The translations under genes and the position numbers were made by a program. This document shows, piece after piece, positions 1 through 3,671 of a stretch of DNA of 64,000 nucleotides. The stretch is taken from positions 740,978-804,977 of the forward strand of contig NZ_KQ031391.1 in NCBI RefSeq assembly GCF_000966285.1, in the 5' to 3' direction. The number at the start of each line of letters is the position of its first letter. Within the stretch, counting starts at the first letter, position 1. The DNA comes from Pseudofrankia sp. DC12 (GTDB lineage Bacteria > Actinomycetota > Actinomycetes > Frankiales > Frankiaceae). The notes below the pieces were generated by a model, which was given only the letters and a program-made list of their open reading frames with translations, made no database searches and was not told the origin of the DNA.

Positions 1-205
1 CTTTACGACATAATCGATGACTAAAAGTATCAGATCAACGATGCAGAGCTGGCCTCGGCAGCGGTGTGACGCGGCCTCGCGCCGATACGCCGATGGCGAG
101 TGTCGGTGCCTCACTCTCCGCATCCAGGATGCTTTCATTCTCGCTGCCAGCAGTTACCGCGGCGGCCATGCGTGCGCCGTCCCTGCCACCGTGACGGAGG
201 TCCGG

Positions 206-556
206 ATGCCGGATGCCAGCCAGCAGGCACCAGCGGGCCCGGGCCCGGCACGGGCCGACGACCACGACGAGATCCGGATCGGGCCCGGCGTGCAGGCCGC
301 CGACATCGGCGGCGAGATCGTCCTGCTGCACCCGGACGACGGCGCGTACTTCGCGCTGAACGAGACGGGCGCCCAGCTCTGGCGGCAGCTGAGCCCGACG
401 TGGGTGCCCCGTGGCGCCGCCGTCCGCCAGGCGGCGGCGACGGTCAGCGACGGCTGGCTCGTCGAGGCGCCGCACGCCGAGCGCGACCTGAGCGAGCCGC
501 TGGACGAGCTGGCGCGCCGCCGCCTCGTCAAGGTCACCCCCCGACCGGCGCCATGA
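206..556 (+). CDS. PqqD-like lasso peptide precursor-recognition protein (RRE, B1)
   Basis: Small winged-helix protein of the PqqD/RRE family, about 116 residues. In lasso peptide clusters this protein binds the leader of the precursor peptide and presents it to the B2 protease. Seen here: the typical PqqD core, with GGEIVLLHPDDGAYFALNET followed by a helix GAQLWRQL, and a C-terminal helix ending ELARRRLVKV. The ATG at 206 is preceded by GGAGG at 196-200 (5-base spacing); an in-frame GTG at 191 is a weaker alternative, and the open frame extending back to 17 has no coding character. The stop TGA overlaps an ATG (ATGA at 553-556). It is followed by B2 and the cyclase, which fixes its role; the precursor peptide gene is not in the window. 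Confidence 0.87.
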   Translation: MPDASQQAPAGPGPARADDHDEIRIGPGVQAADIGGEIVLLHPDDGAYFALNETGAQLWRQLSPTWVPRGAAVRQAAATVSDGWLVEAPHAERDLSEPLDELARRRLVKVTPRPAP

Positions 557-596
557 GCACGGCCGGCACCTTGGCGCCGGGCCGCGCGCTGGCGGG

Positions 597-1025
597 GTGG
601 AACGGGTGGTGCGGGCGCAGCTGTGGTTCGCGGCCGGCCTGCTGGAGACCGCGCTGCGCCACCGCCGGGTGCCGGACCTCGTGATGGCCGCCGGCCACGC
701 CGCCGGATCGCCCGCCGCGCGCTGGTACCCGGCGGGGCGCCTGGCGCTCACCGGCCCCCGCCTGGACGAGCTCGCCGCGGACGCCGGGGCGTTCTGGCGC
801 GGCGACTCCGCCTGCCTGTCCCGGTCGCTGCTGCGCGGCTGGCTCGCCGCGACCGCCGGTCGCAGCGTGGACCTCGTCGTCCGCGTGCGCCGCAGGCGGG
901 CGTTCGCGGCGCACACCTGGCTGGAGGTCGACGGAGCGGTGCACGCCGAGGAGCGCGAACCCACCCTCGTCTACCACCCGGTCGCCAGCTATCCGCTCAC
1001 CGACCAGCGGAGGCCACCTAGATGA
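597..1025 (+). CDS. Lasso peptide B2 leader protease (transglutaminase-like)
   Basis: Cysteine protease of the lasso B2 family (Transglut_core3), which cuts the leader from the precursor peptide before ring closure. The 142-residue product has the expected N-terminal hydrophobic helix (RVVRAQLWFAAGLLETAL), a catalytic Cys near residue 73 in GDSACLSRSLLRGWL and a His near 106 in FAAHTWLEVDG, followed by a probable third residue in the same strand. It overlaps the cyclase gene by ATGA at 1022-1025. The start is uncertain: the only in-frame start is GTG 597, while the ATG coupled to the preceding stop (553) is in another frame and would give a more typical B2 N-terminus if one base were missing between 553 and 597. 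Function is secure from motifs and neighbours. Confidence 0.85.
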   Translation: MERVVRAQLWFAAGLLETALRHRRVPDLVMAAGHAAGSPAARWYPAGRLALTGPRLDELAADAGAFWRGDSACLSRSLLRGWLAATAGRSVDLVVRVRRRRAFAAHTWLEVDGAVHAEEREPTLVYHPVASYPLTDQRRPPR

Positions 1026-3028
1026 CGTTCTGCGCCGAGCTGCGCCTCGACGGCCAGCCGCCGACGACCGCGCTCGTCGAGCGGATGCTCGCCGCCTCGG
1101 CGACCCCCGTCGGCCCCAGCGTGCACGCCTTCGTCGTCGGGCCACTCGCGGTCGCGGCGGCGGCGGGCCCGGCGCTCGGGCCCGCCGCGGACCTCACCCA
1201 CACCGCCGGCGGCCTGATCGCCGTCGTCGACGGGTGGTCACCGCCCGCAGGCGGGCTCGCGGCCCCCGCGCCGGGCGACCAGAGCGGGGCGGCGACGCAG
1301 CCCCGGTCCGCGTCTGGCCAGCTTTCCGCCGCGTGGACCCGGTACAGGGCGTTCGGCCTCGACCGGCTGCTCGGCGACTGGGCGGCGCTCGTCTTCGAGC
1401 AACGGACCCGCCGGCTGGTGCTCGCCCGGTCACCGCGCAGCATGCGCACCCTGGTGCTGCGCCACGGCGCCGGCCGGCTGCTGGTCGCCACCGGCCTCGC
1501 GCAGCTGTGCGCGGCCGGGCCGCCGTTCGAGGCGAACCAGACCGTGCTCGCGGAGATGCTCCTGCACGGCCCGACCACCGAGCACGAGACGCTGGTGCGC
1601 GGCGTCGAGCGGGTGCCGGCCGGCCACCTCGTGGAGATCGAGGCGCGGGCCGGCGAGCGGCCCAGGCGCCGGGCCTTCAGCTCGCTGTACGCGCTCGTCC
1701 CGCCGCTCGCGGCCGAGCCCGTCGAAGCGGCGGCCAGGCGGGCCCGACCAGCCCTCTGGGCCGCGGTCGCGGACGCCGCGCGGTGCGTCGAGGCGCCCGC
1801 CGGGCCGGACCAGCGTCCCGGCCCCGACCTGGCGGCGCCGAGCACCAGCCCGCCGCCGGCGGGGTCGAGCACCAGCCCCCGGTTCGCCGGGGCGGGCACC
1901 GGCTCGGTCGGCGTGGGGCTCTCCGGCGGGGTGGACTCGAGCGTCGTGACCGGGATCGCCGCCCAGCTCGCCCGCTCAGGCCGCCTTGGCCCCGGCGGCT
2001 CGGCGCGGCTGGTCCCGATCAGCATGGTCTTCCCGGGCGAGCCGCACGACGAGTCGCGCTGGATCGACGCGGTCGAGGAGCACACCGGGGTGCCCGTGCT
2101 GCGGGTGAAGCCGGACCCCTACGACTGGGACCGCTGGCGCGCCTGGACGGCCGCGACCGGCGAGCTGCCGCCCTGGGCCAACCTCGCCCTCGCCGACGCC
2201 GTCCGCGCGGCCGCGCGGCGGGAGGGTGTCGCGGTCCTGCTGTCCGGCGAGGGCGGCGACGACTGGTTCAGAGGCTGGCGCGGCCACTGGCCGGACCTGC
2301 TGCGGGCCGGCCGGCTGGGCTTGCTGCGCCGGCAGATCGGCCCGGTCGGCGGGCCACGCGGGCTGCTGGCCAAGGCACGCACGGCCCGCGCCCTGGCCGC
2401 CGCCGCGTCGACGGCCCACGCCGCCGGGCCGCAGTCCGTGGCGCCGCCGTGGATCCGGCCGGCATCGCTGCGCCCGCTGTACCTGACCGACCGGCTCGCG
2501 ATGGCGACCGCTGCCGACGCGGCGGCGTTCGCCTCGCGCGACCACCGGGCACGCTGGGTCCCAGCGGCCTACCGGGCCGCGGCGCCCCTGATCGACACCG
2601 CGCGGACGTTCTACGCGAGCGCCGGCCTCGACTGGCGCCATCCGCTGCACGACCGCCGGGTGATCGAGGCCGCGCTGTCGACCTCCGGCGCGACGATGTA
2701 CCGGCGCGGCCTGACCAAGCCGGTGCTGCGCGCCGCGGCGGGTGAGGTGCTGCCCGCGCGGGTCCGCCACCGCGCGGGCCGGACGCACTTCCTGCACGCG
2801 CTGGCCGACGCGGTGGACGGCGCGGGCGGGCTGCGGGCGCTGCTGGCCGGCGGGCCGCTGGACAACGCCGGCTGGGTCGACGTCGAGGCCGCGACCGGCT
2901 GCTGGGACACCGCCGTGGCCGCGCTGCGCCGCGGCCAGCCGCCGCCGGTGCCCGAGCACGGGCTGGCCGCGCTCTGGCCCGTCGTCGCGGCCGACACCTG
3001 GCTCGCGCACAGCGGCGTACGCCTGTAG
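1022..3028 (+). CDS. Lasso peptide cyclase (asparagine synthetase-like)
   Basis: ATP-dependent macrolactam synthetase of the asparagine synthase B superfamily (McjC/LasC type). It adenylates the side-chain carboxylate of an Asp or Glu in the core peptide and lets the N-terminal amine attack. The 668-residue protein has an N-terminal Ntn-like domain without the usual Cys-2 nucleophile (it begins MTFCAELRLDG), then the PP-loop SGGVDSS near residue 300 and the downstream LLSGEGGDDWFRGWRGHWPD motif that is characteristic of lasso cyclases. A Pro/Ser/Ala-rich stretch of about 40 residues (codons for 1790-1900) separates the domains. The ATG overlaps the stop of B2, so the three genes form one translationally coupled operon. 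The gene converges on hisH with 28 bases between them. Confidence 0.9.
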   Translation: MTFCAELRLDGQPPTTALVERMLAASATPVGPSVHAFVVGPLAVAAAAGPALGPAADLTHTAGGLIAVVDGWSPPAGGLAAPAPGDQSGAATQPRSASGQLSAAWTRYRAFGLDRLLGDWAALVFEQRTRRLVLARSPRSMRTLVLRHGAGRLLVATGLAQLCAAGPPFEANQTVLAEMLLHGPTTEHETLVRGVERVPAGHLVEIEARAGERPRRRAFSSLYALVPPLAAEPVEAAARRARPALWAAVADAARCVEAPAGPDQRPGPDLAAPSTSPPPAGSSTSPRFAGAGTGSVGVGLSGGVDSSVVTGIAAQLARSGRLGPGGSARLVPISMVFPGEPHDESRWIDAVEEHTGVPVLRVKPDPYDWDRWRAWTAATGELPPWANLALADAVRAAARREGVAVLLSGEGGDDWFRGWRGHWPDLLRAGRLGLLRRQIGPVGGPRGLLAKARTARALAAAASTAHAAGPQSVAPPWIRPASLRPLYLTDRLAMATAADAAAFASRDHRARWVPAAYRAAAPLIDTARTFYASAGLDWRHPLHDRRVIEAALSTSGATMYRRGLTKPVLRAAAGEVLPARVRHRAGRTHFLHALADAVDGAGGLRALLAGGPLDNAGWVDVEAATGCWDTAVAALRRGQPPPVPEHGLAALWPVVAADTWLAHSGVRL

Positions 3029-3048
3029 CGGGCCGACCACCGGCCTGC
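3028..3048. terminator. Candidate bidirectional terminator
   Basis: An inverted repeat with 8-base arms (GCGGGCCG / CGGCCTGC, one mismatch) and a 5-base loop occupies the short space between the convergent lasso cyclase and hisH genes. There is no T tract on either side, so this is a weak call. Confidence 0.4.
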
Positions 3049-3056
3049 GGCGACGG

Positions 3057-3671
3057 CTAGGCCAGCGTGCGCAGCCAGTTCGCCAGGACGTGCGCGCCCG
3101 CGTCACCGGACTTCTCCGGGTGGAACTGGGTGGCGCACAGGGCGCCGCGCTCGACGGCGGCGGCGAACGGCTCGCCGTGCTCGGCGGTCGTGTCCCTGGC
3201 CGACAGGTCGGGCTTGGCCGCGTAGGAATGCACGAAGTAGAACCGGGTCTCGGCGGGCAGCCCGGCGAACAGCGTGGAGCCGGCCGGCGCCGCGACGGTG
3301 TTCCAGCCCATGTGCGGCAGGATCGGGGCGGCCAGCCGGCGCACCTCGCCAGCCAGCAGCCCGAGGCCCTCGGTCCGCACGCCGTGCTCGTCGCCCAGCT
3401 CGTAGAGGATCTGCATGCCGACGCAGATCCCGAGCACCGGCCGCCCGGCCGCCACCCGCGCCCGGACCGCCGGCCCGGCGCCGATCCGTTCCACGCCGGC
3501 CATGCAGGCCGCGTACGCGCCGACCCCCGGCACCACGAGGCCGTCCGCGTCGGCCGCCGCGGCCAGGTCGGAGGTGACGGTGACGGCGGCGCCGACCCGC
3601 TCGACGGCCCGCTGGGCCGAGCGCAGGTTGCCAGACCCGTAGTCGAGCACGACGACGTTCGGCTGGCTCAC
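3057..3671 (-). CDS. hisH: Imidazole glycerol phosphate synthase, glutamine amidotransferase subunit
   Basis: Class I glutaminase subunit of IGP synthase; it supplies ammonia to HisF in the fifth step of histidine synthesis. The 204-residue protein matches the usual length. The nucleophile lies in GICVGMQ (Cys about residue 83), and the catalytic His and Glu in QFHPEKSGD near the C-terminus; the oxyanion strand PGVGAY is also present. It is the last gene of a minus-strand hisD-hisC-hisB-hisH run, 25 bases after hisB. In actinobacteria hisA/priA and hisF usually follow directly; here the convergent lasso cluster follows instead, so HisF must be encoded elsewhere. Confidence 0.96.
   Translation of the reverse strand: MSQPNVVVLDYGSGNLRSAQRAVERVGAAVTVTSDLAAAADADGLVVPGVGAYAACMAGVERIGAGPAVRARVAAGRPVLGICVGMQILYELGDEHGVRTEGLGLLAGEVRRLAAPILPHMGWNTVAAPAGSTLFAGLPAETRFYFVHSYAAKPDLSARDTTAEHGEPFAAAVERGALCATQFHPEKSGDAGAHVLANWLRTLA

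Follow-up and report, generated by a model that had tools for sequence, protein, structure and literature searches.

The window, a stretch of 64,000 nucleotides, corresponds to C1:740978-804977 of a single-contig genome of 6,884,336 bp, here called G000 (the prefix “C1:” marks contig coordinates; C1 and C2 otherwise denote cyclases), and it opens with three coupled plus-strand genes for lasso-peptide enzymes. Searches against Pfam and NCBIfam identify the first, B1 (206..556), as a PqqD-like RRE protein of 116 aa (PF05402 PqqD, 1.7e-10; NF033530, 1.2e-8, which is below the cut-off of that model), the second, B2 (553..1025), as a transglutaminase-like leader protease (PF13471/NF033537, 3e-13, over the cut-off), and the third, C1 (1022..3028), as a lasso cyclase of 668 aa related to asparagine synthetases (PF00733, 7.5e-31). 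The top NCBIfam match of the cyclase is the lasso cyclase model NF033535, yet it lies under the cut-off of that model. Both the PqqD-fold RRE of B1 and the ATP motif of the cyclase (SGGVDSS, together with SGEGGDD) are as expected of a lasso system, and B2 retains its active-site Cys and His (SACLSRS, AAHTW). Positions 1..205, which align with the region upstream of B1 in the sister genome G001, are the upstream region, probably a promoter, that separates B1 from the divergent remnant of an NTP_transf_5 gene. On the other side, after a spacing of 28 bp (3029..3056), lies hisH (3057..3671, minus strand), the last gene of the upstream part of an interrupted his operon.

The preliminary description of this DNA had the RRE, the protease and the cyclase all present and coupled, and the family matches agree with this; B1 and C1 are intact, but B2 is not entirely so. 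In an alignment with the two sister species, G001 and Frankia sp. AgB1.9 (G002), the G000 gene lacks 1 bp at ~602/603, so that the ancestral start, ATG 553, where B2 overlaps B1 by ATGA, no longer leads into the B2 frame. The B2 frame opens only from GTG 597, and ~18 residues N-terminal to the conserved domain are lost. Judged from the alignment, this is probably a genuine frameshift; a sequencing error is an alternative cause, and a start at GTG 597 could rescue the protein.

The same description had placed the lasso genes tail-to-tail with hisH and proposed that the cluster was inserted into the his operon, and both points hold: C1 stops at 3028 and hisH at 3057, and hisA (C1:739495-738761) and hisF (about C1:738.6-737.8 kb) lie to the left of the lasso genes, on the strand of hisH and not directly adjoining it. 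Insertion is indicated because hisH is separated from hisA/hisF by only 4.5 kb, and the lasso genes lie in this interval. As at the actinobacterial hisH-priA junction, hisD-C-B-H and hisA-hisF keep their usual order and strand; the difference in G000 is that 4.5 kb interrupt this order and that the lasso genes run the other way. In other Frankiaceae the gap between hisH and hisA can be 0-181 bp, the range in the family being 0 or 33 bp to about 23 kb, and the gene content of the junction varies between genera. Since both gap size and gene content differ, the junction is a variable site, of which the lasso cluster is one occupant. Among the junctions compared (L104-L121), some are empty, several of genus g2 hold ABC-transporter-like genes, and that of G012 holds ~23 kb of mixed genes. 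Besides the lasso genes, the interval in G000 contains a low-complexity gene of 381 aa with no Pfam match (L009:14506-15651), which stands directly before hisA and has a counterpart in G001; its product has a GPRLATDDA repeat at the N-terminus and probably a single membrane span.

What a complete cluster looks like at this site can be seen in G006, where a secreted protein, NTP_transf_5, an ABC exporter, B1, B2, C, the precursor and an HprK-like kinase are followed by hisH. The G006 precursor has 56 aa, its leader ending in ..YEKPALVCHGSLAMRTA and its core being GGLGLNFDGALPLDFTSG. Pseudofrankia asymbiotica NRRL B-16386 (G004) carries the same gene set adjoining hisA, while its hisH lies at the end of a separate contig, and related clusters are found away from the his operon in Frankia sp. 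QA3 (G029) and in G008. The precursor is downstream of C in G006, NRRL B-16386, QA3 and G008. A profile of the precursor family gives strong matches in G001, G002, G004, G006, G008 and G029 and none in G000. The six aligned precursors share the leader elements YxxP, Gly-Ser-x-Ala and Thr, plus Asp at core position 8-9; Ser is the last residue of five of them, the other one has a Ser-Gly terminus, and all six genomes also have the HprK-like kinase, which is absent from G000. If the Thr is at position -2, the cores of G029, G008 and G004 would begin with Asp or Asn (DNSGPPTTD, DIGPLLIFD and NLGLSLNPD), which are unusual first residues for lasso peptides. The secreted protein, of ~200-210 aa, accompanies the lasso cluster at both loci (L058:9858-10484, L061:11224-11832, L062:2359-2994), and its G006 copy has no Pfam match.

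In the two sister species, the gene set is divided. At the his site of G001 and AgB1.9 only NTP_transf_5, B1, B2 and C1 are present. A second locus in G001, which is a single-contig genome, holds the exporter, a further cyclase (C2), the precursor (..AVRTA / GQPGLLLDAIIQIAQPS), the kinase and the secreted protein; in AgB1.9 it comprises the exporter, C2 and the precursor, just past which the contig ends, and the kinase is found at the start of another contig. The predicted cores of the G001 and AgB1.9 precursors are GQPGLLLDAIIQIAQPS and GQPGLLLDAIISIGTIS, that is, peptides of the form GQPGLLLDAII...S. NTP_transf_5 and the kinase each occur once in either genome, the former at the his locus and the latter, in G001, at the C2 locus; B2 is found only at the his locus and in one other place, as a separate lasso-type B2 that in G000 belongs to a third lasso cluster.

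The two cyclases are ~60% identical, and in a tree C1 groups with the cyclase of NRRL B-16386 at a support of 100/100, with C2 outside; C2 may or may not join G006 (AU p 0.31). The identity and the grouping together rule out C2 as a recent duplicate of C1. From the grouping it follows that the second locus is either old or acquired, and that the losses at the his locus postdate the split from NRRL B-16386. The reading we somewhat favour is that one lasso pathway became divided over two loci by reciprocal gene loss in two Pseudofrankia species, that the his-operon enzymes act in trans on the distant precursor, and that the window holds the half that has outlived its partner. It is unlikely that the divided state in the sisters is a chance overlap of two independently decaying clusters that makes nothing. 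In all three species C1 has diverged more quickly than C2 and the his genes have, and in AgB1.9 a GC-rich insert of ~61 bp interrupts C1 near codon 50-60 (L059), as decay would have it; against this, B1, B2, NTP_transf_5, the precursor and the kinase are each retained exactly once in two species, all of B1, B2, C1 and C2 are open in G001, and the AgB1.9 insert is likely an assembly artefact. In the sisters, B1 and B2 of another lasso cluster could also serve the C2-locus precursor instead.

Maps of the his and C2 loci of G000 against G001 as the reference reveal a series of deletions. At the his locus, ~0.96 kb is gone with most of NTP_transf_5, leaving an ORF of 58 aa (C1:740707-740883, minus strand, just outside the window). 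At the C2 locus, a deletion of ~1.17 kb took most of the kinase and all of the precursor but its first ~14 bp, two others of ~0.2 and ~0.77 kb broke the exporter, and one of ~0.83 kb removed the secreted-protein gene. Neither the HprK-like kinase nor NTP_transf_5, apart from the 58-aa remnant, is found by a search of the G000 genome. Where the relatives have their precursor and kinase genes, between C and hisH, G000 has only the 28 bp of 3029..3056. No lasso precursor is present in positions 1-205, as the preliminary description had noted from the reading frames there, and across the whole G000 genome the precursor profile finds nothing significant, the best matches (E 0.03 or worse) lying within other long frames. 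A precursor for these enzymes with a YxxP leader, Thr at -2 and Asp or Glu at core position 7-9, present in the six relatives, is thus not found in G000, and a strongly diverged one could escape the profile.

The lasso genes of the window are quite probably the half that survives of a paeninodin/pseudomycoidin-type pathway, with a precursor ending in Ser, an HprK-like kinase and NTP_transf_5, that was orphaned by gene loss. On the G000 branch, B1, C1 and C2 have about as many amino-acid changes per silent change as in the sisters, with no clear excess, and therefore either the genes were lost recently or the enzymes still serve some purpose. Relaxed selection along this branch was considered for B1, B2 and C1 and set aside, there being no clear signal and few sites for B1 and B2. 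It is improbable that the his-locus enzymes of G000 still work on some unrecognised precursor encoded at another locus, such as the third lasso cluster at C1:3.05 Mb. B1, C1 and C2 have open, largely conserved frames, and the precursor of the third cluster has a YxxP leader, but that cluster is equipped with a B1, B2 and C set to itself, no G000 precursor of the matching leader family is found, and the exporter, kinase and NTP_transf_5 genes of the pathway are all broken or gone. The proposal that the precursor simply lies outside the window to the left can be dismissed, since the relatives have it on the opposite side of C, and the sole small coding-like ORF there, the minus-strand 58-aa frame, which adjoins the operon and has a GRVDYPNE stretch with Gly1 and Glu8, has no YxxP leader, matches the start of G001 NTP_transf_5 in its first 15 residues and spans the ~0.96 kb deletion. 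An orphaned and recently disabled pathway for a lasso peptide with a C-terminal Ser, similar to paeninodin and pseudomycoidin, is the most likely account of the operon.

Under this account, a complete cluster would once have stood at the hisH-hisA junction, and its copy there would have lost the exporter, precursor, kinase and secreted-protein genes in the ancestor of G000 and its two sisters. The second locus, where the cyclase is the diverged C2, would have kept those genes and would be without B1, B2 and NTP_transf_5. In the sisters, the his-locus B1 and B2 would act in trans: by homology, B1 may bind and present the YxxP leader and B2 may cut after it, C1 and/or C2 would close a Gly1-Asp8 ring, and, by analogy with paeninodin and pseudomycoidin, the kinase would phosphorylate the C-terminal Ser, which the NTP_transf_5 enzyme would modify with further groups. 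In G000, later deletions would have taken the precursor and the kinase and broken the exporter, leaving B1, B2, C1 and C2 with no substrate and, as far as the gene content indicates, no product made at present.

Genome mining usually presumes that a lasso precursor adjoins its enzymes. The sister strains go against this assumption, with precursor and protease far apart, and the operon of G000, probably without any product, would still be reported as a cluster by mining. The pathway occurs whole, divided and orphaned within a single genus, which offers a natural series of cluster break-up as well as a concrete test case for a lasso protease working on a remote precursor. No relevant case emerged from a literature search for lasso clusters some of whose genes stand alone at other genomic sites.

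Two kinds of system are useful for comparison. The third lasso cluster of G000 (L065:6850-10200) likewise has C, B1, B2 and a precursor with YxxP, but it is complete and self-contained, with a very distant cyclase; its precursor of 70 aa continues beyond the core GRWGWGRDWLWRSFPRYY with a long glycine-rich tail. The other kind is the pseudomycoidin (psm) and paeninodin (pade) clusters. In these, the C-terminal Ser is the phosphorylation site of PadeK and PsmK, and PsmN adds hexose (PMC9266682). The relatives of G000 share with them the precursor with a conserved C-terminal Ser, the HprK-like kinase, NTP_transf_5, the split B1/B2, C and the ABC exporter, whereas in the sister species this gene set is divided between two loci, and in G000 the genes for precursor, kinase and exporter have been lost or damaged and NTP_transf_5 is a remnant.
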